From Chitinophaga pinensis (GTDB taxonomy: Bacteria > Bacteroidota > Bacteroidia > CAMBQF01), in assembly GCA_945869825.1 (NCBI GenBank), contig CAMBQF010000003.1, forward strand, positions 1 through 52,934: a DNA stretch of 52,934 nt, written 5' to 3'. Below, in pieces: positions 27,691-41,910 of this stretch (position 1 is its first letter; each line of letters opens with the position of its first letter). The notes below the pieces were generated by a model, which had not been told where the DNA came from, made no database searches, and saw only the letters and a list, made by a program, of their open reading frames with translations. A program made the position numbers and the translations under genes.

Positions 27691-30600
27691 TTACTTGTTT
27701 GTTAGTGCGTTTAAATCAATCACACTAAGGTTTAGCGCCTTTACGGCGTCTAAATAATCACTTTGGGTGGCAATGGCCTGGTTAATCAGCATTACCCAGT
27801 CCAGATAATTAATATCGCCACCTTGTAACTGAGTGCTGGCTGTTTTAATAATGGTATCAGCATAGCCGAGGGCGCTGCCCTCATAATAATCTACCGCCTG
27901 CTTGTTCTTTGTGTAATTGGCCAATGCCTGGCTGTAGGCTGTTTGCAAAGAGTTTACCCCCGACAGGTAGTTGTATTGCGCAATTTGCTTGTCTATTTTC
28001 AATGCGCCAATTTTTGCTTTTTGTGCGCCAAAAAACAAGGGAATACCCAAGCCAAATTGCGCCGACTGAAAACGGTAAGTAGTAGTGTAGGCTTTATTAT
28101 CGGCACCTATACCTCGTATACTCATGTTGCTGTAGCCCAAGCTAATATCAGGCAACAGGCCTGCCTTTTCTGTTTTTAGGCGGTAAAGGCTTACCTGCTC
28201 TTGTTGTTTTAAGTAGCCAGCCAGCGGGTGCTGCATAAGGGTGCTGCTATCAACCACCATAGGCAATTCAATTTTAAATTGCGGTTGGTAGGGTATATAA
28301 TCCACGCCGGTATTAAGCAGATAATTAAGTTGCTTTTGAAGCACAACATAGTCTTGCTGCAACTGGGTAAGTTGCAGGTTTACTTTGCCTTTAAGGTTAT
28401 CGGCAGTGGTCTTTTCCAAGATGTTGCTTTCGCCCTTGTTAAAGCGTTGCGTACTTTTTATTAAAAACTCAGTAAAAAGGCTATCGGCACGTTGCAAAAG
28501 TTTCTTCTTCTGGTCTAAAAAGAGCAACTCATAAAACACCGCAGACACCTGCTTCTTCAAATCGTTCTGCTTAATGGCTACTGCCAGTTGCCCGCCTTTA
28601 TACTCCTCATTAAGCAACTGCTTTTGGGTGCTGTAAACAGTAGGAAATTTTATGGTTTGAGAAATACTAAAACGGGTATCGTTATACACACTGTTTATTT
28701 GCCCATACTCGCCTATAACAGCGGTAGATTGTAGGTTCCACGCGGTGCCTTTTAACTTGCCCAGATAGTCGGTTTGCAGGTTTTGTGCACGCAGGCTTAC
28801 GTTGTTTTTCAAAGCGGTATCAATAGCCGCTTGCAGCGTTAAAGTTTGCTGCCCATAGCTTGCTGTAGAGCCAAAACTCATAAAGCCGATAACGGTTAGC
28901 CCTGCTACAATATGCTTTTTAACTTTAAAACCACTCTCAAACAAAATGTACAGTATGGGTAATACAAAAAGGGTAAGCAAGGTGGCCAGTAACAGCCCGC
29001 CAATAACTACCGTAGCTAACGGACGCTGCACCTCTGCACCTGCCCCGTTGCTAACGGCCATAGGCAAAAAGCCCAGCGATGCCACAAAGGCTGTCATAAG
29101 CACTGGCCTAAGCCTAACTTTGGTGCCTTGAGTAACAATGCGCTTAACATCCTTTAGCCCTTCGGCACGCAGGCGGTTAAACTCGGCAATAAGTACAATG
29201 CCATTTAGCACCGCCACGCCAAACAAGGCAATAAAGCCCACCCCGGCTGATATACTAAACGGTAAGCCCCTTGCTGCAAGCGCAAATATGCCACCAACAG
29301 CAGACAGCGGAATAGCCGTGTAAATAAGTAAGCCCTGTTTAATAGAGCCAAATGCAAAATACAGCATAAGAAATATGAGTAGTAACGATATGGGAACGGC
29401 AATGCTTAAGCGCTTTTTAGCCGCATTCAGGTTTTCAAACGCGCCACCATAATCTATACGGTAGCCACGTGGGAGTTTGATGTCGGAAGTAACCTTGGCC
29501 TGCAACTCAGTTACAATACTTTGTACATCGCGCCCACGAACGTTAAAGCCAACGATTATGCGCCTTTTAGACCCCTCGCGTTGAATTTGGTTAGGGCCGT
29601 TTTTGCTTACAATACTTGCCAACTGGTATAAGGGCACTTGTGTGCCTTGCCTGGTAGGTATCAGCAGGTTTTCTACATCAGTAATGTTACTGCGTTTTTC
29701 AACTTGTAGCCGCACTACCATATCAAACCTTTTTTCACCCTCAAACACCAAACCCGCACTTTGTCCAGCAAAGGCGGTGTTTACCACCTTGTTTACATCG
29801 CTAATATTAAGGCCGTACTGTGCCATTGCACTACGATTGTAGCTAATTATAATTTGCGGCATACCGCCAACGGGTTCAACAAATATATCTTTAGCACCAT
29901 CAATAGTACCAGCTGCTTCGCCCAGCTTTTGGGCAAATAAGGCAAGGCTATCCATATTGTCGCCAAATATTTTACAAACTACATCCTGGCGCGCCCCCGT
30001 CATCAACTCGTTAAAACGCATTTGCACGGGGTATTGAAAGCCTGTGGTTAAACCGGGCACAGCTTCCAGTTCTTTGCTCATTTTATCGGCCAGTTCATTA
30101 AATGTTTGGGCTGATGTCCACTCGCTTTTGTCTTTCAGTATTATCATCATGTCTGATGCTTCAATAGGCATAGGGTCTGTGGGAATTTCGCCGCTGCCTG
30201 TTTTGGTTACCACTTTTTGTACTTCAGGAAATTTTTCGAGCAGAATATGCGATGCCTTTTGCGTAGCCTCAATATTTGCTGTAAGGTTGCTACCGGTAAG
30301 CAGGCGGCATTCAACGGCAAAATCGCCTTCTTCTAAACTAGGTATAAACTCGCCGCCTAAAAAGGTTAGCGTTACTACCGCACCAATAAATAAAGCAATA
30401 GTAACAGCTAAAATGGTTTTAGGGAAATTTAATGCCCTTGTAAGTGTTTTTTGGTATAATCGCCCTATGCCCTCCATGATCCTGTCGGATATTGTTTTTT
30501 TATGGCTGATTTTTTTGCTTAAAAACAGCGCGCTAAAGGCAGGTATATAGGTTAGCGAGAGGATGAAAGCACCCAACAGTGCAAAGGCTACTGTTTGAGC

Positions 30601-32040
30601 CATGGGCTTAAACATTTTACCCTCTATGCCCTGCAATGTAAATATGGGCAGGTATACTATTAAAATTATTATTTGTCCAAAAACAGCGCTATTCATCATC
30701 CGCCCCGCCGATTGGTTAACCTCGGTATCCATATCGCCCTGGGTTAGCTTGCTTACCTGACTGAATTTTTTGCTATGGGTAAGCGTGTGCATTACAGCCT
30801 CTACAATAATTACCGCCCCATCTACAATAAGACCAAAATCTAACGCGCCAAGGCTCATCAGGTTGCCGCTAACGCCAAACAGGTTCATCATAATTATGGC
30901 AAACAACATAGCCAGCGGTATTACCGATGCCACCAATAGCCCTGCCCTAAAATTGCCTAAGAAAAGCACCAGCACAAAAATCACAATCAACGCACCTTCC
31001 AGTAGGTTTTTCTCTACAGTGCCGATGGCATTGTTTACCATTTTGGTTCGGTCTAAAAAAGGTTCTATTACCACCCCTTCAGGCAGGTCTTTCTTAATTA
31101 ATTCAATCCGCTCTTTTACATCTTTAATAACGCTGCTACTGTTGCCGCTCTTTACCATCATCACCACACCGCCGGCTACCTCGCCCATGTCATTATAGCA
31201 CAATGCGCCATAGCGTATGGCATTACCAAAGCGCACATCAGCCACATCGCGAATAAATAGCGGGGTGCCATTTTCTGTGCTTTTTACCTGTATGCTTTCA
31301 ATATCGGCAAGGGTGCCCACTAAGCCTTCGGTACGTATGTACTGCACAGTAGGGCCTTTTTCAATGTAGGCTCCGCCGGTATTCTGGTTGTTATTCTCCA
31401 GCGCGCTAAAAATATCAGCAATGGTTACCCCATACGATTTTAGCTTATCGGCATTTACAGCAATTTCGTACTGCTTAAGCTTGCCGCCAAAGCTGCTTAC
31501 ATCGGCCACACCGGCTACGCCTAGTAGTTGGCGACGCACCGTCCAATCTTGTATAGTGCGCAACGCTGTGGCATCATACTTATTCTCATATCCCTCTTTG
31601 GGCCTTACAACGTATTGATAAATCTCGCCAAGGCCGGTAGTTACCGGGCCCATTTCGGGCAAGTCTACCCCCGGGGGCATAAGCGGTTGCACTTTTACAA
31701 GGCGTTCGCTAACCTGCTGGCGCGCCCAGTAAACATCTACATCATCAGTAAAAACCAACGTAACCACCGATAAACCAAAACGCGAAAAGCTACGCATTTC
31801 CATTAAGCCCGGTATGTTGGCGTTAGCCTGCTCTATTGGGTAAGTAATAAGCCGCTCAATATCGGTAGCGCCCATAGCGGGAGCTACAGTAATAACCTGC
31901 ACCTGATTGTTGGTAATATCGGGCACGGCATCTATGGGTAAACGCGTTACCTCGTAACTGCCATAGCCAATAAGGCCAATAACAAACAGGGCAATTATCA
32001 GCTTATTTTTAACTGAAAATTGAATTATCCGGTTTAGCAT
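27691..32040 (-). CDS. czcA: CzcA-type heavy-metal RND pump fused to a TolC-like outer-membrane factor
   Basis: 1449 residues, about 400 more than a normal CzcA. Residues 1 to about 1040 are an HME-RND permease: LPIDAVPDITNNQVQV after helix 1, and near residue 405 the motif DFGLIVDGAVIIVE, whose Asp, Asp and Glu spacing matches the essential proton-relay residues of CzcA. This favours Zn2+, Co2+ or Cd2+ over the copper-type CusA. From about 1065 the protein is a TolC-like factor starting TLTLQAAIDTALKNN. Between them lies KKHIVAGLTVIGFMSFG with STASYGQQ, which looks like a complete signal peptide. Such fusions are recurrent in Bacteroidota. It replaces a separate CzcC in this operon. Confidence 0.93.
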   Translation of the reverse strand: MLNRIIQFSVKNKLIIALFVIGLIGYGSYEVTRLPIDAVPDITNNQVQVITVAPAMGATDIERLITYPIEQANANIPGLMEMRSFSRFGLSVVTLVFTDDVDVYWARQQVSERLVKVQPLMPPGVDLPEMGPVTTGLGEIYQYVVRPKEGYENKYDATALRTIQDWTVRRQLLGVAGVADVSSFGGKLKQYEIAVNADKLKSYGVTIADIFSALENNNQNTGGAYIEKGPTVQYIRTEGLVGTLADIESIQVKSTENGTPLFIRDVADVRFGNAIRYGALCYNDMGEVAGGVVMMVKSGNSSSVIKDVKERIELIKKDLPEGVVIEPFLDRTKMVNNAIGTVEKNLLEGALIVIFVLVLFLGNFRAGLLVASVIPLAMLFAIIMMNLFGVSGNLMSLGALDFGLIVDGAVIIVEAVMHTLTHSKKFSQVSKLTQGDMDTEVNQSAGRMMNSAVFGQIIILIVYLPIFTLQGIEGKMFKPMAQTVAFALLGAFILSLTYIPAFSALFLSKKISHKKTISDRIMEGIGRLYQKTLTRALNFPKTILAVTIALFIGAVVTLTFLGGEFIPSLEEGDFAVECRLLTGSNLTANIEATQKASHILLEKFPEVQKVVTKTGSGEIPTDPMPIEASDMMIILKDKSEWTSAQTFNELADKMSKELEAVPGLTTGFQYPVQMRFNELMTGARQDVVCKIFGDNMDSLALFAQKLGEAAGTIDGAKDIFVEPVGGMPQIIISYNRSAMAQYGLNISDVNKVVNTAFAGQSAGLVFEGEKRFDMVVRLQVEKRSNITDVENLLIPTRQGTQVPLYQLASIVSKNGPNQIQREGSKRRIIVGFNVRGRDVQSIVTELQAKVTSDIKLPRGYRIDYGGAFENLNAAKKRLSIAVPISLLLIFLMLYFAFGSIKQGLLIYTAIPLSAVGGIFALAARGLPFSISAGVGFIALFGVAVLNGIVLIAEFNRLRAEGLKDVKRIVTQGTKVRLRPVLMTAFVASLGFLPMAVSNGAGAEVQRPLATVVIGGLLLATLLTLFVLPILYILFESGFKVKKHIVAGLTVIGFMSFGSTASYGQQTLTLQAAIDTALKNNVSLRAQNLQTDYLGKLKGTAWNLQSTAVIGEYGQINSVYNDTRFSISQTIKFPTVYSTQKQLLNEEYKGGQLAVAIKQNDLKKQVSAVFYELLFLDQKKKLLQRADSLFTEFLIKSTQRFNKGESNILEKTTADNLKGKVNLQLTQLQQDYVVLQKQLNYLLNTGVDYIPYQPQFKIELPMVVDSSTLMQHPLAGYLKQQEQVSLYRLKTEKAGLLPDISLGYSNMSIRGIGADNKAYTTTYRFQSAQFGLGIPLFFGAQKAKIGALKIDKQIAQYNYLSGVNSLQTAYSQALANYTKNKQAVDYYEGSALGYADTIIKTASTQLQGGDINYLDWVMLINQAIATQSDYLDAVKALNLSVIDLNALTNK

Positions 32041-33128: not shown

Positions 33129-35339
33129 CTAGTTACCTAAGTCGCTAATAAATTTAAGTCGAACCAGGCGCAACTCTTCGCTGCTGTAAGTTTCTTCGCC
33201 AAACTCTTCAACAGCATCTTCAATGCTGTCAGTTTCAGCCGTGCGGAAGAAATCAAAAATCTCCTGTTGCTCTTCTTCGCCCAACAACTCGTTCAGGTAG
33301 TAGTTAAGGTCTAGCTTAGTGCCAGACGATACGATACTTTCCATCTCGGTAATAAGTTCGTTAGGTGTTACCCCTTTCGCCTCGCATATATCTTCAAGCG
33401 GCAACTTACGGTCAACGCTTTGAATGATGTACACTTTAAGGCCCGACTTGTTTACCACCGATTTTACAACCATATCCTGTGGGCGGTGGATATCATTATC
33501 CTCCACATACTTTTTGATAAGTTCGACAAACGGTTTGCCGAACTTTTGGGCTTTACCTGCGCCAACACCGCTAATGTTTTTCATTTCCTCTAGCGTTACC
33601 GGATACTGAATAGTCATATCCTCTAACGATGGGTCTTGAAACACAACGTATGGTGGCACATTATTTTGCTTAGCAATTTTTTTGCGTAAGTCTTTTAGTA
33701 AGGTAAAAAGGGCATCGTCAGAAGCACCGCCGCCACCTTGGGCTGCTGCGCCGTCTACGCCTTCTTCGTCCTTATCTGTTTCATCAAAATTCTGGTCCTT
33801 TGTCAACATAATTGAATAAGGTTTTTCCAAGTATTGTTTACCTTTTTCTGTTACTTTTAATATTCCGTAGTTCTCAATTTCCTTTGATAAAAAGCCCAAC
33901 ACAGCAGCCTGGCGGGCAACTGCCATCCAGTGGCGTTCTCCCTCTTCAACTCCTTTGCCAAAGATTTCAAGCTCGTGGTGCTTATACTGTTTTATAGCGG
34001 TATTGGTATTACCTACCAGTACATTGGCCACGTGCCTGTCTTTAAACTTCTCTTTAACGGCTAAAACGGCTTCAATTATATCACAAATTGCGTCTTCGCC
34101 CTCAAAAGGTGTTTTGGGGTTACGGCAGTTATCGCACATGCCGTTACAACCCTCTTCATCAAATTCTTCGCCAAAGTAATGCAAAACTATCTTACGTCTG
34201 CAATTTGAACTTTCAGCATAGGCTATAGTTTCTGATATCAATTGCATCCCAATCTCTTGCTCAGCAACGGGTTTGCCCTTTAAAAACTTTTCTAATTTTT
34301 GTATATCATCATAGCTGTAAAAGGTAATACAGTTGCCTTCGCCCCCGTCGCGGCCGGCTCTTCCGGTCTCCTGATAGTAACCTTCCAGGCTTTTGGGTAT
34401 CTCGTGATGGATAACAAAACGAACATCGGGCTTGTCTATCCCCATACCAAAAGCTATAGTGGCTACTATAACCTGGATATCTTCCATAAGGAACTTATCC
34501 TGTGTTTCGGGCCTTGTTTTGGCATCAAGACCCGCATGGTATGGCAGGGCTTTAATACCATTGGCCTGAAGCAAAGCTGCCAATTCTTCAACCTTCTTCC
34601 TGCTCAAACAATAGATAATACCACTTTTGTTTGGATTTTGTTTAATGTACTTAACTATTTCTTTATCAGCATTTACTTTTGGGCGTACCTCGTAGTAAAG
34701 GTTGCTGCGGTTAAATGATGATTTGAATACCCTGGCGGTTTGCATGCCCAGGTTTTTCAAAATATCCTGCTGTACTTTTGGGGTTGCTGTTGCGGTAAGG
34801 GCAATAATAGGCACCTGGCCAATAGCCTCTATAATAGAGCGCAGACGGCGGTACTCCGGGCGAAAATCGTGCCCCCACTCAGAAATACAGTGTGCCTCAT
34901 CAATTGCAAAGAATGATATTTTAATTTCGCGGAAAAAGGCTACGTTTTCTTCTTTAGTGAGCGACTCGGGCGCTACATACAACATTTTGGTGCGCCCGGC
35001 AGTAATATCGGCCTTTACCTTTTCAATTTCTTTTTTGGTAAGCGATGAGTTTAGGAAATGGGCCACTCCATCGTCAGACCCGTAGTTGCGTATTGCATCT
35101 ACCTGGTTTTTCATCAATGCAATAAGTGGAGATACAATAATTGCCGTACCCTCGCTAATTAAAGCCGGCAACTGGTAGCATAGGCTTTTACCACCGCCCG
35201 TAGGCATTATAACAAAGGTATCATTACCTGCTAAAATACTGTTTATTACTTCCTCCTGTTCTCCTTTAAACTTGTTAAACCCAAAATACTGTTGCAAATG
35301 GGTGGCTAAAGGCACCTCAATTTCGTTGTCAATTAACAT
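33129..35339 (-). CDS. recQ: ATP-dependent DNA helicase RecQ
   Basis: 736 residues. It is a 3'-5' DNA helicase in recombination and fork repair. Walker A MPTGGGKSLCYQLP is near residue 50, the DEAH box is in FAIDEAHCISEWGHDFRPEY, and motif VI is QETGRAGRDG. The RecQ zinc-binding site has four cysteines (CRRKI, then CNGMCDNC), followed by the winged helix and an HRDC domain at about 540-610 (NNVPPYVVFQDPSLEDM). The last 110 residues are an extra C-terminal helical tail ending in an acidic segment. It is a single-gene transcript with its own promoter and terminator. Confidence 0.97.
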   Translation of the reverse strand: MLIDNEIEVPLATHLQQYFGFNKFKGEQEEVINSILAGNDTFVIMPTGGGKSLCYQLPALISEGTAIIVSPLIALMKNQVDAIRNYGSDDGVAHFLNSSLTKKEIEKVKADITAGRTKMLYVAPESLTKEENVAFFREIKISFFAIDEAHCISEWGHDFRPEYRRLRSIIEAIGQVPIIALTATATPKVQQDILKNLGMQTARVFKSSFNRSNLYYEVRPKVNADKEIVKYIKQNPNKSGIIYCLSRKKVEELAALLQANGIKALPYHAGLDAKTRPETQDKFLMEDIQVIVATIAFGMGIDKPDVRFVIHHEIPKSLEGYYQETGRAGRDGGEGNCITFYSYDDIQKLEKFLKGKPVAEQEIGMQLISETIAYAESSNCRRKIVLHYFGEEFDEEGCNGMCDNCRNPKTPFEGEDAICDIIEAVLAVKEKFKDRHVANVLVGNTNTAIKQYKHHELEIFGKGVEEGERHWMAVARQAAVLGFLSKEIENYGILKVTEKGKQYLEKPYSIMLTKDQNFDETDKDEEGVDGAAAQGGGGASDDALFTLLKDLRKKIAKQNNVPPYVVFQDPSLEDMTIQYPVTLEEMKNISGVGAGKAQKFGKPFVELIKKYVEDNDIHRPQDMVVKSVVNKSGLKVYIIQSVDRKLPLEDICEAKGVTPNELITEMESIVSSGTKLDLNYYLNELLGEEEQQEIFDFFRTAETDSIEDAVEEFGEETYSSEELRLVRLKFISDLGN

Positions 35340-35582: not shown

Positions 35583-36470
35583 ATGGACAAGAGCAAAACG
35601 CTTAGTATAGTAATACCGGTATACAACGAAGAAAAATCATTACCAACCGTTTTACCGGAGGTTATAAGTTTTGTGGCAGCCAATAATTACCATTTAATAT
35701 TGGTAAACGATGGGTCAAAAGACCAATCGCTGGCCACAATGTCTGCCTTTTGTAAAGATATGCCCTATTGCACCATTGTAAACCACAAGGTAAACCGGGG
35801 GTATGGCGGGGCTATAAAAAGCGGGGTATTAGCCGCCGAAACCGATTTTGTAATAACTATTGATGCCGATGGGCAACATTACCTTGAAGATGTTACCAAA
35901 CTATTTAGCCACCTGCTTGATACAGATGCAGATATGGTAGTAGGCAGCCGCAAAGGCCAAAAAGAGGCATCAGCATTCCGCGGGGTGGGCAAATCCATTA
36001 TACGAAGTGTCGCTAAAGTATTGATGCCCATAAATATTTACGACATCAATTCGGGCATGAAGATATACAACACAGGACTTGGCAAGCTTTATATTAAACT
36101 TTGCCCAGACTCTATGGCATACAGCGATATTATTGCCCTAGTATTTATAAGCCAACGCCACAGGGTGCTTGAAACACCTATTGGTATAAAAGCACGAGCC
36201 GCGGGCGAAAGCACCATAGGGGCGCGCACTGCCTTTGAAACCATTATGGAGATTTTAAACGTGGTAATTTTGTTTAACCCTATGCGGGTGTTTTTGCCCA
36301 TAGCCATCCTGTCTATGTTTACTGGCATTTTGTGGGACCTGCAGTTTCTTTTTACAGGGCGCGGCTTAAGTATTGGTGCATCTATGCTAATTATTGCCGG
36401 GTTTATATTTTTCTCTATCGGGTTGATAACAGAGCAACTATCGCAAATACGTAAAAGGCAAATTTTGTAG
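35583..36470 (+). CDS. GT2-family glycosyltransferase, polyprenyl-phosphate sugar synthase-like
   Basis: 295 residues. The GT-A domain starts SIVIPVYNEEKSLPTVLPEV, has the DxD-type ITIDADGQHYLEDV, and later GSRKGQKEAS and INSGMKIY, typical of the DPM1/DPG synthase branch that transfers a sugar from an NDP-sugar to polyprenyl phosphate. Two C-terminal membrane helices (about 235-285) anchor it. It is the first gene of a six-gene run; its TAG overlaps the GTG of the deacetylase by one base. The product would be a lipid-linked sugar used outside the membrane. The sugar is not identifiable. No clear promoter is seen in the 243 bases upstream. Confidence 0.9.
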   Translation: MDKSKTLSIVIPVYNEEKSLPTVLPEVISFVAANNYHLILVNDGSKDQSLATMSAFCKDMPYCTIVNHKVNRGYGGAIKSGVLAAETDFVITIDADGQHYLEDVTKLFSHLLDTDADMVVGSRKGQKEASAFRGVGKSIIRSVAKVLMPINIYDINSGMKIYNTGLGKLYIKLCPDSMAYSDIIALVFISQRHRVLETPIGIKARAAGESTIGARTAFETIMEILNVVILFNPMRVFLPIAILSMFTGILWDLQFLFTGRGLSIGASMLIIAGFIFFSIGLITEQLSQIRKRQIL

Positions 36471-37297
36471 TGGCTATAACCAATAAAAAATATTACCTAT
36501 TTAGTGTTGACTTAGAGGATGTTAGGGACATGATTGACAATGGTATGCAATACAAAGAAGCCGTTGTAAGCAATACCCAAAAATATCTTGCTTGGCTAAG
36601 TAAACACAAATTTAAAGCCACATTTTTTGTAGTTGGGCGCACCGCCCAGGCATTTCCATCGTTAATAAAAGAAATTGCCGATAGCGGGCACGAAATTGCC
36701 CTGCACAGCCACAACCATGTGCACATTACCAAACTTACACCCGAGCAATTTAAGGCAGATATAACAGCCAATATTAATGCTATACAAAAGGCGGGTGTTG
36801 CAACCGTAAAAGGCTTTAGGGCGCCTACTTTCTCGCTGGTTGAACAAAGTAAATGGGCATATAAAATTTTGCGCAATGCGGGTATCGAATATTCATCATC
36901 AGTAATACCAAATACAAACCCTCTGTTTGGCTGGCAAAATTTTGGTGGCGAACAAATGGTAGACGGGGTGTATGAAATACCAATGAATATAGGCAACAAG
37001 CCTTTTAGTGTGCCATTTGGCGGCGGGGTTTATTTTAGGTTTTTACCATGGCTTATATCTAAGCGTTTGTTTAAAAACACGGCAAAAAAACAACAGCCTG
37101 TTTTAGGATATTTTCATCCGTATGATATAAATACAGAGCAGGAACGTTTTATGCACCCGCACCTAAACAACAACAAGCTTTTAAACAAGCTTATGTATAT
37201 TAACCGCAGCAAAGTATTTAACCGCCTTGACCGGGTTATTGATTTAGGTTTTGAAGTGGTTAGGTATGATGACTATTATAGGATGCAAACAGAATGA
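36470..37297 (+). CDS. Polysaccharide deacetylase (NodB-type), paralogue 1
   Basis: 275 residues, GTG start directly on the end of the GT2 gene. The NodB-homology motifs are FSVDLEDV (motif 1, Asp pair), HSHNHVH (metal-binding His pair) and KGFRAPTFS (motif 3), plus GYFHPYDINTEQERF near the C-terminus. The form SVDxED matches the deacetylases found in polysaccharide export clusters more than peptidoglycan deacetylases. It has no signal peptide, so it acts in the cytoplasm on a precursor. Its closest relative here is the gene at 41059, with the same motifs and the same unusual tail HPYDI(N/D)TEQERFMHP. The next gene overlaps by 4 bases. Confidence 0.9.
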   Translation: MAITNKKYYLFSVDLEDVRDMIDNGMQYKEAVVSNTQKYLAWLSKHKFKATFFVVGRTAQAFPSLIKEIADSGHEIALHSHNHVHITKLTPEQFKADITANINAIQKAGVATVKGFRAPTFSLVEQSKWAYKILRNAGIEYSSSVIPNTNPLFGWQNFGGEQMVDGVYEIPMNIGNKPFSVPFGGGVYFRFLPWLISKRLFKNTAKKQQPVLGYFHPYDINTEQERFMHPHLNNNKLLNKLMYINRSKVFNRLDRVIDLGFEVVRYDDYYRMQTE

Positions 37298-37698
37298 GTA
37301 ATGCTAAGCTATATACAAACGAGGCTGAAAGGCTAAGCCTTTACATTATTGGTAAATCTTGCAATAGCGATGTTGCTGATGGGTATGCTGCTGCGGTAAC
37401 CAAGCTGGATATGGCATTAACACCCGCGCAGGAACAAACCTATAAACGTATGGTTGGCTGGCGCTTTTATATGCGGGCTATTGATGGTGGGTTGGCATTT
37501 ACCAATCGCGAGTCGCTATTGCGGAAACGGATATTTGTAATGCTATGCCTGCTTGAATCATCAAAATACAATACCGAGTACTTTTTGCCACGCAAGCGCA
37601 ACCCCTTTTACTTTTTTGGTATTGGCCTTAATGTGGCCTACGCTTTTTTTACCGCTATAATTGGTATATTAATAATTAAACTGAACAACATTGAATAG
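37294..37698 (+). CDS. Hypothetical 134-residue protein with a C-terminal membrane helix
   Basis: Starts with the ATGA overlap on the deacetylase and overlaps the oxidoreductase start by 8 bases, so it is translationally coupled on both sides. Residues 1-105 are soluble and mainly helical (YIIGKSCNSDVADGYAAAV, LTPAQEQTYKRMVG), and residues 108-131 are a membrane helix. I recognise no domain or catalytic motif. Its position between two enzymes suggests that it tethers or regulates them at the membrane, but that is an inference from gene order only. Confidence 0.75.
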   Translation: MSNAKLYTNEAERLSLYIIGKSCNSDVADGYAAAVTKLDMALTPAQEQTYKRMVGWRFYMRAIDGGLAFTNRESLLRKRIFVMLCLLESSKYNTEYFLPRKRNPFYFFGIGLNVAYAFFTAIIGILIIKLNNIE

Positions 37699-39307
37699 CC
37701 CCGAAAGCGCAATAGACTATATTATTGTAGGCTCGGGCTTAACCGGGGCCATGGCTGCGGAAACACTGGTAACAGAAGGGGCTGATGTACTGATGCTGGA
37801 TGTTGCTTATAAAAACGAAACGGGAGTAGAATATCCTACAACCGATTTTTTAAGCATCCGCAAAGAAAATGACAACCAGCGGCAGCTATTTTTAGGCGAT
37901 AATTTTGAGGGAGTACCTTGGGGCGCTATAAAAACAGGAGCGCAGCTTACACCTGGACGAAAATACATTGTAAAAGAACTTGATAAATGGCTTGCTATTG
38001 CCGGTGACACCTTCTTTCCGATGGAAAGTTTGGCTTATGGCGGACTTGGCAATGCCTGGGGTGCAGGCTGCTATATCTTTTCTGATGCTGAATTTGAAAA
38101 AATGGGCATTAGCAAGAGTAAGTTTACTGATAGCTACCAAACCGTGGGTGATAGGATTGGCGTTTCGGCGGGGTTGGATGATGCATTACCGTATACAGTT
38201 GGCGGGCTAAACAATATACTGCCGGCCATAAAGCCCGAAGCTGGGATGCTGGCTATGCTGGAGCGATACACCAGAAAAAAACAAGCACTAAACAAGAAAG
38301 GTTTTTATGCGGGTGTGCCGGGGGTTGCTTTGCTCACAAAAGACAAAGAAGACCGCAAGGCATTTTCGTATAACGACATGGACTTTTGGCACGACAATGA
38401 ACAATCGGTATACAGGCCATGGATGACGGTGGATAAGCTGAAGAAAAAGACAAACTTTCAATTGGAAGAAAGGGTGCTTGTAACCCGCTTTGAAGAAGTT
38501 GGCGACCTTGTAAAAGTTGTATGCACCCATACTGAAAAGAACGAAGAAAAAGAATTTTGGTGCCGTAAATTAGTATTATGTAGCGGTGTATTAGGCACAG
38601 CGCGTATAGTGCTGCGCTCTTTTAAAAAACAACAAACACTGCCGCTAATTTGTAACCCATATGTTTATGTACCAATGATAAACTGGCGTATGCTGGGTGT
38701 AGAAACCCAAAGTCACAAAAGCGGTATGGGGCAGGCGGTTTTGTTTTACGATAAAAAACAAGACAACAGCGATGTTGCAATGGCAGCTATGTTTACCTAC
38801 CGGTCGTTATTGCTGTATAGGTTGATAAAAGAAGCGCCGCTAAACTTTGCCACTGGGCGCGCGGTAATGCAATACCTTGTTCCGGCAATGGTTATAGCAG
38901 GCATACACCACCCCGAATATGGTGGCAGCAATAAGTTTGTACGGCTTGAAAAAGATATAAACTCTGCAACAGGCGACAGGCTATTTGCAGATTACAGGCT
39001 TAGCAGTACTGAAGAAAAGGAAGTGCTGGCAACGGAGGCCAAATTTTTTCAAACTTTCCGCAGCCTGGGGTGCATACCCATACAAAAAATTTACCCGGGC
39101 CATGGCTCTAGCATACACTATGCGGGTGTTTTGCCATTTTCGGCTACAGAAGAGTTATATACAACAGCAGAAAACGGCAGGCTGCACCAAACAAAAAACG
39201 TTTGGGTGGCCGATGGCTCATCTTTTAAATATGTGCCGGCCAAAGGCATATCATTTACCCTTATGGCCAACGCCGATAGGGTAGCTAAACACGCGTTAAA
39301 AAGGTAA
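37691..39307 (+). CDS. GMC-like FAD-dependent oxidoreductase
   Basis: 538 residues with TTG start 37691; a TGA at 37682 just upstream in frame excludes an earlier start. The FAD-binding Rossmann motif IIVGSGLTGAMAAETL is at about residues 11-26. The C-terminal GMC-type motifs HGSSIHYAGVLPF, and VWVADGSSFKYVPAKG ending in NADRVAKHAL, are present. Such enzymes oxidise alcohols or sugars or reduce double bonds. The middle part (GLGNAWGAGCYIF, FQLEERVLVTRFEE) fits the family. In this cluster it probably oxidises a sugar or lipid-linked intermediate. The substrate is unknown, and the pairing with a deacetylase and epimerase is unusual. Confidence 0.85.
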   Translation: MNSPESAIDYIIVGSGLTGAMAAETLVTEGADVLMLDVAYKNETGVEYPTTDFLSIRKENDNQRQLFLGDNFEGVPWGAIKTGAQLTPGRKYIVKELDKWLAIAGDTFFPMESLAYGGLGNAWGAGCYIFSDAEFEKMGISKSKFTDSYQTVGDRIGVSAGLDDALPYTVGGLNNILPAIKPEAGMLAMLERYTRKKQALNKKGFYAGVPGVALLTKDKEDRKAFSYNDMDFWHDNEQSVYRPWMTVDKLKKKTNFQLEERVLVTRFEEVGDLVKVVCTHTEKNEEKEFWCRKLVLCSGVLGTARIVLRSFKKQQTLPLICNPYVYVPMINWRMLGVETQSHKSGMGQAVLFYDKKQDNSDVAMAAMFTYRSLLLYRLIKEAPLNFATGRAVMQYLVPAMVIAGIHHPEYGGSNKFVRLEKDINSATGDRLFADYRLSSTEEKEVLATEAKFFQTFRSLGCIPIQKIYPGHGSSIHYAGVLPFSATEELYTTAENGRLHQTKNVWVADGSSFKYVPAKGISFTLMANADRVAKHALKR

Positions 39308-39308
39308 C

Positions 39309-40160
39309 ATGAAAATTGCAATAACAGGCGCATCGGGTTTTATTGGGGCTGAATTGGTTAAGTACCTATCGGCACACCATAGTATTATAGCACTAAAACG
39401 CACACTAAGCAATGCGGCAGGGCAAAACACCGAAGAGCGAAGGTTTGATTTAACAGACGAAAACACATTTAATGCTTTTGACGATGCAGAGGTTTTAGTG
39501 CACTGTGCTTTTATTAAAGCTGATAAAAAAAACAAGCATGCATTGCAAACTAATATTGATGCTACGCTAAAGCTGGCGGCTATTTGCAAGCAAAAAAACA
39601 TACACTTTGTATTCCTATCATCAATGTCGGCACACAGCGATGCATTGTCTGACTATGGAAAACACAAGTTTAACCTGGAACAAAAGCTTGATAATTCCGC
39701 AACCTGCGTATTAAAGCTGGGCCTTGTAATGGGCAATAGTGGCGGGCTTTATAATACCATACAACAAACCATTGCAAAATCGTCTGTTATACCCTTAATA
39801 AGTGGCGGGCAGCAACCCATACAGGTTATCCATGTATCAGACCTGGCAAAGCTTACAGAGAAAATAGCGCAACAAAAAATTACCGGCACCTACTGCGTTG
39901 GATCGGCAAAAGTTTATACGCTTAAGTATATGTATGAAGCTATTGCTGCATCGCTGGGCAAAAAAATAAAATTTGCCAGCCTGCCATTCGGGTTTATGCG
40001 GTTTTCCCTAACTATTGCAGAGGGTATAGGCTTAACCCTGCCCGTAACAACAGAAAATCTTTTGGGGCTAAAGCAGCTGAAGGCCTTTGATACGCAAGCC
40101 GACTTAGATTCGCTGCAAATAACCCTGCTGAGTTTGGAAGAAGCGGTAACAATTTCATAG
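39309..40160 (+). CDS. NAD-dependent epimerase/dehydratase (extended SDR)
   Basis: 283 residues. The nucleotide-binding motif GASGFIGAEL is at residues 7-16, the catalytic serine in LSSMSAHS, and the YxxxK motif in DYGKHKFNLE. It belongs to the UDP-sugar epimerase/dehydratase superfamily, which changes the configuration or oxidation state of NDP-sugars. It is a little shorter than GalE (about 330), so its sugar-binding domain is reduced. It starts one base after the oxidoreductase stop. It could act on the same sugar intermediate as the oxidoreductase, for example as a ketoreductase partner. Confidence 0.88.
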   Translation: MKIAITGASGFIGAELVKYLSAHHSIIALKRTLSNAAGQNTEERRFDLTDENTFNAFDDAEVLVHCAFIKADKKNKHALQTNIDATLKLAAICKQKNIHFVFLSSMSAHSDALSDYGKHKFNLEQKLDNSATCVLKLGLVMGNSGGLYNTIQQTIAKSSVIPLISGGQQPIQVIHVSDLAKLTEKIAQQKITGTYCVGSAKVYTLKYMYEAIAASLGKKIKFASLPFGFMRFSLTIAEGIGLTLPVTTENLLGLKQLKAFDTQADLDSLQITLLSLEEAVTIS

Positions 40161-40169
40161 CTTTAACGC

Positions 40170-41015
40170 ATGTACAACTTTACACGGGTAACTACTGACA
40201 ATGAAGCCAACGCTGCACATGCAGGCCTCTTGGCCAATGTTTTTGAAAAACCGGTGCTGTTTACCCCTGCGTTTATTAAATGGCAATATGCTGATAACCC
40301 CGCAGGCCAAATAGTTGGTTATAATGCAATGGCAGGCGATGTTATGGCCGCGCATTATGTAACACAACCATTTTACGCTGTTTTAGAAGGTAGAAAAAGT
40401 AAGGGCTTACTATCACTTAATACCGCTACACATGCCGACCACAGAGGCAAGGGGCTATTTACCCGGCTGGCCGATAAAACGTATGAAGCTGCTGCTGCAG
40501 AGGGCTATGAATTTGTAATTGGCGTAGCCAACCAAAACTCTGTACATGGGTTTACCAAAAAGCTAGGCTTTCAGCTTGCGGGACAGTTGCACGCCAAGGT
40601 TGGTTTTGGGCATCCGCCTGCAATTAATAGCAATGTTAATGCACAGTATGAGCGGATATGGGATGCCCAAATGCTAAACTGGCGATTAGCCAACCCGTCA
40701 AACAATTATTTGTCGGCTGGAGGTAAGATGGTATCATTCTATTCTAAAACACATATACCATTTATAAAATCGCACTTAGTTAGTATAGATAAAAGTATAG
40801 TGAACAAGGAATTTGGCAGCACCGTGTTTAACCCACTAACATTGTATATTGGTATTGATGCAGGCATAAAATTTACAGGTAGCACGTTTTTCAATATCCC
40901 ATTGCGGTTTAGGCCGGCGCCACTCTACCTGATATTTAAAGATTTGACGGGGAAAGGCCAAGTTTTAGACTTTGATAACATACGGTTTAGGCTTATTGAT
41001 TTTGATGCCTATTAG
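40170..41015 (+). CDS. GNAT-family N-acetyltransferase
   Basis: 281 residues. The N-terminal half is a GNAT domain: the acetyl-CoA loop motif is HADHRGKGLFTRL, followed by YEFVIGVANQNSVHGFTKKLGF, which is the usual C-terminal GNAT strand and helix. The second half (about 150-281) is a longer extension with no clear domain. It starts nine bases after the epimerase. In glycan clusters such acetyltransferases modify amino sugars, which would be the reverse chemistry of the deacetylases here. Substrate unknown. Confidence 0.85.
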   Translation: MYNFTRVTTDNEANAAHAGLLANVFEKPVLFTPAFIKWQYADNPAGQIVGYNAMAGDVMAAHYVTQPFYAVLEGRKSKGLLSLNTATHADHRGKGLFTRLADKTYEAAAAEGYEFVIGVANQNSVHGFTKKLGFQLAGQLHAKVGFGHPPAINSNVNAQYERIWDAQMLNWRLANPSNNYLSAGGKMVSFYSKTHIPFIKSHLVSIDKSIVNKEFGSTVFNPLTLYIGIDAGIKFTGSTFFNIPLRFRPAPLYLIFKDLTGKGQVLDFDNIRFRLIDFDAY

Positions 41016-41022
41016 CAGGGTA

Positions 41023-41052
41023 TTGATAGTTTGCAATTAAAATTTACATTTG
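41023..41052 (+). promoter_or_regulatory. Probable promoter of the second deacetylase gene
   Basis: TTG (41023-41025), 19 bases, then TACATTTG (41045-41052), ideal spacing. It ends 6 bases before the ATG at 41059 and excludes the TTG at 41050 as a start. Confidence 0.6.
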
Positions 41053-41058
41053 CAACCC

Positions 41059-41910
41059 ATGTTTACGCCTTCAGAAAAATATTTCCTTTTTTCGATTGAT
41101 TTGGAAGACATCCGTTTTAGGATGCCTGATGGGGAAAAGTATGCAGAGCGTGTGCCGGCTATGGTAGATAAATACCTGGAATTTTTGAGCCGCCACAACA
41201 GTAAATGTACCTGGTTTACGGTGGGCGATGTTGCCCGCAAATACCCATCGATAATAAAAATGCTGGCTGACGAGGGGCATGAAATTGCCTGCCATACAGA
41301 CCTGCATATACCCCTTACCAAACAAAATAAAGAAAGTTTTAGCAACGATTTAAAGCGGAATATAGAATCGCTGTATAATGCAGGGGCTAAAAATATTATG
41401 GGTTTCAGGGCGCCTATATTTTCGCTAACCCCCAATACCCAATGGGCGTATGAAGTGTTGGAGCAGCAGGGCATTGTGTATTCAAGCTCGGTATTGCCAA
41501 ACCCCAACCCTTTTTATGGCTGGCCAAATTTTGGCGAAAACCCACGTATGGTAGGCCATGTGCTTGAAATACCTATGACGTTGGGGCGGTTTTTCCACCT
41601 GCGGGTACCTATTGCGGGGGGAGTGTATTTCCGCCTGTATAATTACAAGGCCCTGAAGTTGAATTTTGATATGCACTATAATGCGGGGAGAGCTGTTGTC
41701 AGCTACTTTCACCCATACGATATTGATACAGAACAGGAGCGCTTTATGCACCCCGACTTGAACGGGAGCAAGCTGTATAATTTTTTGATGTATTACAACC
41801 GTAAATCGGTATTGCCGCGTTTGGATAGTTTGATGCACGGTATGAAGCTAACTATTGTTCCTTACCGCGATTATATAGCTGATATTAAGCCATCGTTGGT
41901 AGTGGGGTAG
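41059..41910 (+). CDS. Polysaccharide deacetylase (NodB-type), paralogue 2
   Basis: 283 residues. Motifs: FSIDLEDI (motif 1), HEIACHTDLH (metal-binding His pair), MGFRAPIFS (motif 3) and YFHPYDIDTEQERFMHP. It is clearly homologous over its full length to the gene at 36470, including the YSSSV(I/L)PN(T/P)NP segment, but the loop around the first histidine differs (HTDLHIPL versus HSHNHVHI), suggesting a different substrate or residue position. It has its own promoter, so it can be expressed separately from the six-gene run. The active-site residues are kept, so it is likely to be functional. Confidence 0.9.
   Translation: MFTPSEKYFLFSIDLEDIRFRMPDGEKYAERVPAMVDKYLEFLSRHNSKCTWFTVGDVARKYPSIIKMLADEGHEIACHTDLHIPLTKQNKESFSNDLKRNIESLYNAGAKNIMGFRAPIFSLTPNTQWAYEVLEQQGIVYSSSVLPNPNPFYGWPNFGENPRMVGHVLEIPMTLGRFFHLRVPIAGGVYFRLYNYKALKLNFDMHYNAGRAVVSYFHPYDIDTEQERFMHPDLNGSKLYNFLMYYNRKSVLPRLDSLMHGMKLTIVPYRDYIADIKPSLVVG

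Follow-up and report, generated by a model that had tools for sequence, protein, structure and literature searches.

A composite Chitinophaga pinensis locus predicted to make and edit polyprenyl-phosphate-linked sugars

Seven tightly spaced open reading frames (ORFs) at positions 35583–41910 of a 52,934-nucleotide stretch of Chitinophaga pinensis DNA raise the question of which product they could make together. The stretch, below called the window, is contig CAMBQF010000003.1 of assembly GCA_945869825.1 (2.98 Mb in 189 contigs). A preliminary description, made from the letters alone, had read these ORFs as a family 2 glycosyltransferase (GT2), a NodB deacetylase, a small protein of unknown family, a GMC-like flavin oxidoreductase, an NAD-dependent epimerase, a GNAT acyltransferase and a second NodB deacetylase, and had suggested that they make or edit a lipid-linked amino or keto sugar. 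All seven genes are present in the window ORF list with the positions given there, on the plus strand and closely packed. The family calls were borne out by Pfam and NCBIfam searches (for the GMC protein, by fold), and neither a flippase, a polymerase nor an exporter gene was found within the interval, as had been claimed. Our analysis, which draws on gene content, co-occurrence, synteny, folds and motifs, predicts that the locus likely functions in polyprenyl-phosphate-sugar synthesis and editing. Of the readings considered, the making or editing of a lipid-linked amino or keto sugar has the best support: the GT2 is close to ArnC and DPM synthase, related loci carry a GacI/GacJ-like pair, and the flavoprotein has a sugar-dehydrogenase fold.

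Profiles were prepared for gene 4, which encodes a divergent GMC-fold FAD oxidoreductase of 538 aa (37691–39307; alignment A1), and for gene 3, which encodes an all-helical protein of 134 aa (ORF 37294–37698; alignment A2), and each was searched over the same 295 genomes of the class Bacteroidia. The two profiles matched an identical set of 30 genomes. The preliminary description had proposed checking whether the 134-residue protein always co-occurs; with the GMC gene, it does. The positive genomes span 13 families, and two families are divided: f10 (G123 positive, G011 negative) and f15 (G188 positive, G016 negative), with both genes missing from the negative members. Both genes are also kept in G048, G077, G110, G142 and G229, where they lie at least 20 kb apart or on separate contigs. 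An apparent case of gene 3 without the GMC gene, G157, came from a single-sequence match (2e-4, with an internal stop codon) that was gone when the profile was used. The shared distribution, in genomes that are not independent samples, is strong evidence for functional dependence between the two proteins. When a phylum-wide sample of 346 genomes was searched, the GMC profile matched solely in the window's own genome.

Gene order was then compared, for the window genome and two same-order relatives (all three of one genus) and for the more distant loci. About 18 kb or less was read for each locus; ORFs in the relatives were delimited simply by length, then checked with profiles built from those same loci. 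Gene 3 immediately precedes the GMC gene in 25 of the 30 genomes, and a gene for a short-chain dehydrogenase/reductase (SDR), the counterpart of gene 5, adjoins the GMC gene in 25 of 30; in G077 one ORF intervenes. The commonest order (13/30), also present in G001 of the same genus, is an uninterrupted GT2-DUF2304-gene 3-GMC-SDR, usually divergent from recQ. G000 and G002 carry instead a longer GT2 (GT2-B), a NodB gene before gene 3, and a GNAT gene and a second NodB gene after the SDR gene. The full set of seven was seen solely in these two genomes. GT2-B without NodB or GNAT is found in G123 and G188, and the order NodB-gene 3-GMC(-SDR)-GNAT in G038 and G021, which belong to other families. 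Where the core is split, its halves keep their own company: gene 3 remains beside DUF2304 in G110, G142 and G229, the GMC gene remains with the SDR gene in G048, G142, G077 and G110, and in G048 one piece reads GT2-DUF2304-gene 3 and the other GMC-SDR.

NodB and GNAT genes likewise occur together without the core. Relatives of gene 6 cluster with a NodB gene in G021, G038, G091, G145 and G175, and GNAT relatives are also present in genomes that lack the GMC gene. The core-less G091 has recQ next to a GT2-B-NodB-GNAT run, alongside a convergent gene for a protein with multiple transmembrane segments and tetratricopeptide repeats (TPRs). G145 and G175, also core-less, have the order GT2-DUF2304-NodB-GNAT, and two genes upstream lies a PMT_2 gene (PF13231 at 1.5e-20 in G145). 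In the GMC tree G001 joins G000 and G002, away from the G021/G038 pair, which implies repeated gain or loss of NodB and GNAT. The same main well-supported groups are recovered in the gene 3 tree. Thus, the locus is composite: gene 3-GMC-SDR and NodB-GNAT are two separable modules, each tied to a carrier-lipid GT2, and the earlier treatment of the locus as one seven-gene system was wrong.

Gene 1 (35583–36470) encodes the GT2-B protein of 295 aa, which matches PF00535 at 5e-27. The closest solved structures are ArnC (9hwj, 3e-16) and the Pyrococcus dolichyl-phosphate mannose (DPM) synthase (5mlz, 6e-15), aligned over residues 5–276 and 4–271, respectively; both of these enzymes load a sugar onto polyprenyl phosphate. 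With its catalytic domain and two C-terminal hydrophobic segments (hydropathy peaks at 227–245 and 264–282) the protein is a polyprenyl-phosphate GT2 of the DPM synthase/ArnC/GtrB type. As an ArnC equivalog (NF007986) it was rejected, scoring 80.8 bits at a cut-off of 529. In relatives its place is held by a shorter GT2 (~240 aa) paired with a DUF2304 protein (PF10066 at 5e-31 in G021). The shorter type adjoins a DUF2304 gene in 16 of the 30 core-bearing genomes, the same-genus G001 among them, and DUF2304 is absent from the window. DUF2304 is typical of GacJ, the partner of the undecaprenyl-phosphate-GlcNAc synthase GacI (PMC8327497; PMC8035078), and in streptococci the GacI/GacJ pair produces undecaprenyl-phosphate-GlcNAc (PMC8327497).

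The gene 4 protein is weakly recognised by sequence (PF05199 at 5e-4, under the cut-off). Its AlphaFold2 model (pLDDT 85.6) had as top folds the fructose dehydrogenase large subunit (E 8e-26, TM-score 0.78) and the alpha subunit of Burkholderia FAD-dependent glucose dehydrogenase (FAD-GDH), the range being E 8e-26 to 3e-24 and TM-score 0.75–0.78. Glycines G14, G16 and G19 of the FAD Rossmann motif and the catalytic His476 are invariant in alignment A1, as in the GMC superfamily. The second catalytic Asn/His of this superfamily is replaced by Ser/Thr521 in 22 of 22 sequences, a position assigned by sequence motif alone and close to the invariant Lys518. Clustered cysteines at the 3Fe-4S site (loop 197–229 of Burkholderia FAD-GDH) were not found in the GMC protein. 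DprE1, a flavoenzyme of VAO-type fold, was considered as an identity for gene 4 and rejected: no FAD_binding_4/ALO Pfam match was obtained, and the fold is that of GMC. In the complete metagenome-assembled genome of the same genus (L032; G001:C1:283400-284994) the GMC gene is frameshifted into two overlapping frames with an internal TGA, which reflects either a pseudogene or an assembly error.

Gene 5 (39309–40160) encodes an extended SDR of 283 aa from the NAD-dependent epimerase/dehydratase superfamily (PF01370, 2e-15). Its GxxGxxG and YxxxK motifs are unbroken, with G7, G10, G13, Y116 and K120 invariant in 19 sequences, and its profile is equally close to the complex I subunit NDUFA9 and to assorted reductases. 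Membrane segments were not predicted in the products of genes 2, 4, 5, 6 and 7, and in the gene 4 protein the FAD motif begins within the first 20 residues; both are consistent with cytoplasmic action of the putative editing enzymes.

Gene 3 had no Pfam match, no sequence match in the PDB and no fold match there (best fold E 1.8). The predicted model is all-helical (pLDDT 88.5) and ends in a helix at residues 105–130, strongly hydrophobic in the window protein and carrying basic residues in many relatives. This terminal segment could serve as a tail anchor; the alternative is an amphipathic membrane helix. No N-terminal twin-arginine (RR) signal is present in the gene 3 alignment, and no signal peptide, Tat or other, was seen on the gene 3 or gene 4 protein. 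Membership in Gluconate_2-dh3 (PF13618), a family of small helical dehydrogenase partners, was rejected: comparison with nine Bacteroidia Gluconate_2-dh3 proteins gave an hhalign probability of 0.1%, and no PF13618 protein was found in the nine genomes tested. Gene 3 defines a new family, without a Pfam, PDB or Gluconate_2-dh3 match. We propose that its product is a membrane-side adaptor of the GMC enzyme, mainly because in split cores gene 3 stays with DUF2304 and the GMC gene with the SDR gene. Elsewhere, in locus L118 (G058:C26:76309-76686), a Gluconate_2-dh3-like domain appears to be fused N-terminally to a Rossmann/GMC-like protein, in a frame of at least about 650 codons.

The second module is represented by genes 2, 6 and 7. 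Gene 2 (36470–37297, 275 aa) and gene 7 (41050–41910, 286 aa) encode NodB-fold deacetylases with a DUF3473 domain; the respective matches to PF01522 and PF11959 are 4e-25 and 1e-17 for gene 2 and 3e-17 and 9e-23 for gene 7. The Asp-His-His metal site of NodB (CE4-like) enzymes is present in the sequences as unbroken DLED, HxxxH (HSHNH/HTDLH), RAP and FHPYD motifs, and no signal peptide was seen on gene 2. The best-matching model for both proteins is TIGR03006, the XrtA-system deacetylase; membership in the XrtA/PEP-CTERM group was rejected, the scores being 166 and 178 bits at a cut-off of 276. Gene 6 (40170–41015) encodes a GNAT N-acyltransferase of 281 aa (PF13527, 2e-7, over the cut-off). 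Between G000 and G002 (L030:11360-12217), gene 7 has 99% identity, with only 91–96% for genes 1–6; a slower rate of change in gene 7, its recent transfer, or gene conversion could account for the difference.

The following scheme can be proposed from the families involved. At the cytoplasmic face, gene 1 would take a sugar from a nucleotide sugar and load it onto undecaprenyl or another polyprenyl phosphate; the sugar would probably be an N-acetylated hexosamine. Its N-acyl group would be stripped by gene 2, gene 7 or both, and gene 6 could place a different acyl group on the freed amine; a carrier-bound N-acetylhexosamine would suit the successive action of NodB and GNAT enzymes. Kept at the membrane by the gene 3 product, the gene 4 FAD enzyme would oxidise a ring hydroxyl to give a keto-sugar, which the SDR would reduce with NAD(P)H. 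Since the oxidising and reducing enzymes are separate, net inversion of one carbon, i.e. epimerisation of the lipid-linked sugar, is possible. The product would then be exported and transferred by proteins encoded elsewhere, a flippase and a GT-C transferase. We regard a lipid-linked polyprenyl-phosphate-sugar synthesis and editing operon as the best explanation of the locus, and hold the complete step-wise scheme to be somewhat more probable than its negation; two-step epimerisation in particular is a tentative prediction, somewhat short of an even chance.

Several observations weigh against this scheme. The GT2 and SDR families are broad. Relatives of the NodB and GNAT proteins could act on free polysaccharide or on nucleotide sugars, and the usual second catalytic residue of GMC enzymes is Ser/Thr here. 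An SDR gene is missing from the region read in 5 of the 30 GMC genomes (G038, G043, G046, G123 and G229), so GMC oxidation may not always lead on to SDR reduction. A GT2 gene is missing from the region read of the core loci of G038, G043, G046, G172, G042 and G114. Finally, neither a GT-C nor a flippase gene adjoins the locus in the window's genome.

The missing SDR genes are what would be expected if the GMC enzyme left a lasting keto group or oxidised the lipid part, reduction by the SDR being unrelated and no epimerisation taking place, and the closeness of the SDR profile to NDUFA9 points the same way. However, the SDR gene stays beside the GMC gene in most genomes, including split ones in which the two have remained together, and we consider this explanation unlikely. 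Somewhat less probable still is a nucleotide-sugar or exopolysaccharide-type pathway, in which a polysaccharide would be trimmed by NodB and GNAT, in the manner of XrtA/PEP-CTERM loci, with the GMC and SDR enzymes acting on a soluble sugar. GNAT and NodB genes are frequent in polysaccharide loci, and an XrtA-system model is the top match of both NodB proteins. Yet these matches fall far below the model's cut-off, no exosortase, Wzx/Wzy or other glycosyltransferase gene was seen beside the operon, and the partner that is kept is a carrier-type GT2, accompanied by DUF2304 in relatives.

The lowest probability is given to gene 3 being a divergent Gluconate_2-dh3, or hitch-hiker (gamma), subunit of a catabolic electron-transfer sugar dehydrogenase; we consider this very unlikely. 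Gene 3 is small, helical and directly upstream of the GMC gene, and the best GMC folds are alpha or large subunits that require a small helical partner (PMC6719666). Against this stand the negligible profile similarity and the missing PF13618 proteins, the lack of a signal peptide on either protein and of a conserved cysteine cluster that could bind a 3Fe-4S centre, and the neighbourhood, in which there is no cytochrome gene alongside and the neighbours are glycosyltransferase genes.

The packing of the locus bears on its expression. Genes 1/2, 2/3 and 3/4 overlap by 1, 4 and 8 nt, and genes 4/5, 5/6 and 6/7 are separated by 1, 9 and 34 nt, the last gap widening to 43 nt with the ATG at 41059, probably the true start of gene 7. 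A separate promoter had been assigned to gene 7. The promoter-like sequence in front of it (TTGATA-16-TACATT, 41023–41050) matches 9 of 12 consensus positions; such matches are of chance quality (30 sites found, compared with 22.1 +/- 4.7 in shuffled sequences), and nothing in the gap fits the Bacteroidota-type pattern TTTG-N17-24-TAnnTTTG. With so short a gap, a promoter of its own is unsupported and was rejected, and gene 7 is plausibly the final gene of the same operon. To the left lies recQ (33129–35339, minus strand), outside the pathway and divergent; the RecQ profile matches at the same position in many relatives, where the gene forms a kept boundary. Further left (27691–32040, minus strand) the window encodes a CusA/CzcA-type efflux pump of 1449 aa, whose homologue in L032 extends into a TolC-like region and may be a fusion of RND and TolC.

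Genes near related loci include candidate transferases. A multi-transmembrane protein of 600–790 aa with C-terminal TPRs and an FxFDD motif near the N terminus is encoded near the locus in nine genomes (L037, L038, L039, L040, L054, L055, L058, L101 and L133), twice in tandem. Its matches in Pfam and the PDB are essentially to TPRs, the membrane part having no Pfam name; from its sequence pattern and a resemblance to TMTC proteins, we take it to be a possible GT-C enzyme. A relative is encoded on contig C88 of the window's genome, and with candidate GT-C genes adjoining several related loci the missing transferase is less puzzling. In six genomes of one family (L043–L046, L048 and L050) a KdsD/KpsF-like isomerase gene (323 aa, SIS+CBS) lies between recQ and GT2, in some only a few bases before GT2; we judge it to be an old recQ neighbour outside the pathway. 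A gene for a gamma-carbonic-anhydrase-like hexapeptide protein adjoins DUF2304 and/or gene 3 in L036, L041, L042 and L053 (family f37).

Carrier-lipid sugars feed surface decorations such as lipopolysaccharide, glycoproteins and cell-wall glycans, and few cases are known in which the sugar is edited when already on the carrier (ArnD, NaxD, DprE1/E2). The literature searched contained nothing relevant on GMC with polyprenyl phosphate, or on GMC with undecaprenyl and glycosyltransferase. The GMC enzyme, its obligate gene 3 adaptor and the SDR may form a second, independently evolved route of epimerisation or oxidation for carrier-lipid sugars, a portable cassette placed between GT2 and transferase in at least 13 Bacteroidia families; we put this forward as a possibility with the odds slightly against it. 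If true, about a tenth of the sampled Bacteroidia species would carry such an editing cassette, and unusual sugars would be predicted in environmental Bacteroidota. Gene 3 would then have a role open to testing, and DprE1-type chemistry could be compared across two flavoenzyme folds.

Among known systems, the ArnC-ArnD step of lipid A aminoarabinose modification likewise has a carrier-lipid GT2 (ArnC being the nearest solved structure to gene 1) followed by a NodB-fold enzyme; ArnD is an N-deacylase that works on a lipid-linked sugar. In contrast, the window locus is without the other arn genes, adds GNAT, GMC, SDR and gene 3, and has a GT2 far below the ArnC equivalog cut-off. The FAD fructose and glucose dehydrogenase complexes (gamma-alpha-beta; PMC6719666) share the GMC fold and a small helical partner encoded upstream, but the locus lacks the Fe-S cysteines, cytochrome subunit and signal peptide, and gene 3 is non-homologous to Gluconate_2-dh3 by profile comparison. 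Relatives of the locus resemble GacI/GacJ and other multi-component transmembrane glycosylation systems (PMC8035078; PMC8327497) in carrying GT2 with DUF2304, and some have PMT_2 or multi-transmembrane/TPR neighbours as candidate transferases. As far as described, the sugar is transferred unchanged in those systems, whereas the locus inserts editing enzymes, and in the window an ArnC/DPM synthase-like GT2 replaces the pair and the NodB-GNAT module is added. In the DprE1/DprE2 system decaprenyl-phosphate-ribose is epimerised by two enzymes, one for FAD-dependent oxidation and one for the NAD(P)H reduction that follows (PMC10307805). The likeness is in the proposed logic only, a two-enzyme redox reaction on a polyprenyl-phosphate sugar: the window locus has a GMC fold, an extended SDR and the additional gene 3, and no pentose-phosphate transferase. 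On the best reading, the locus would work like ArnC/ArnD and DprE1/DprE2 and be a member of neither system.

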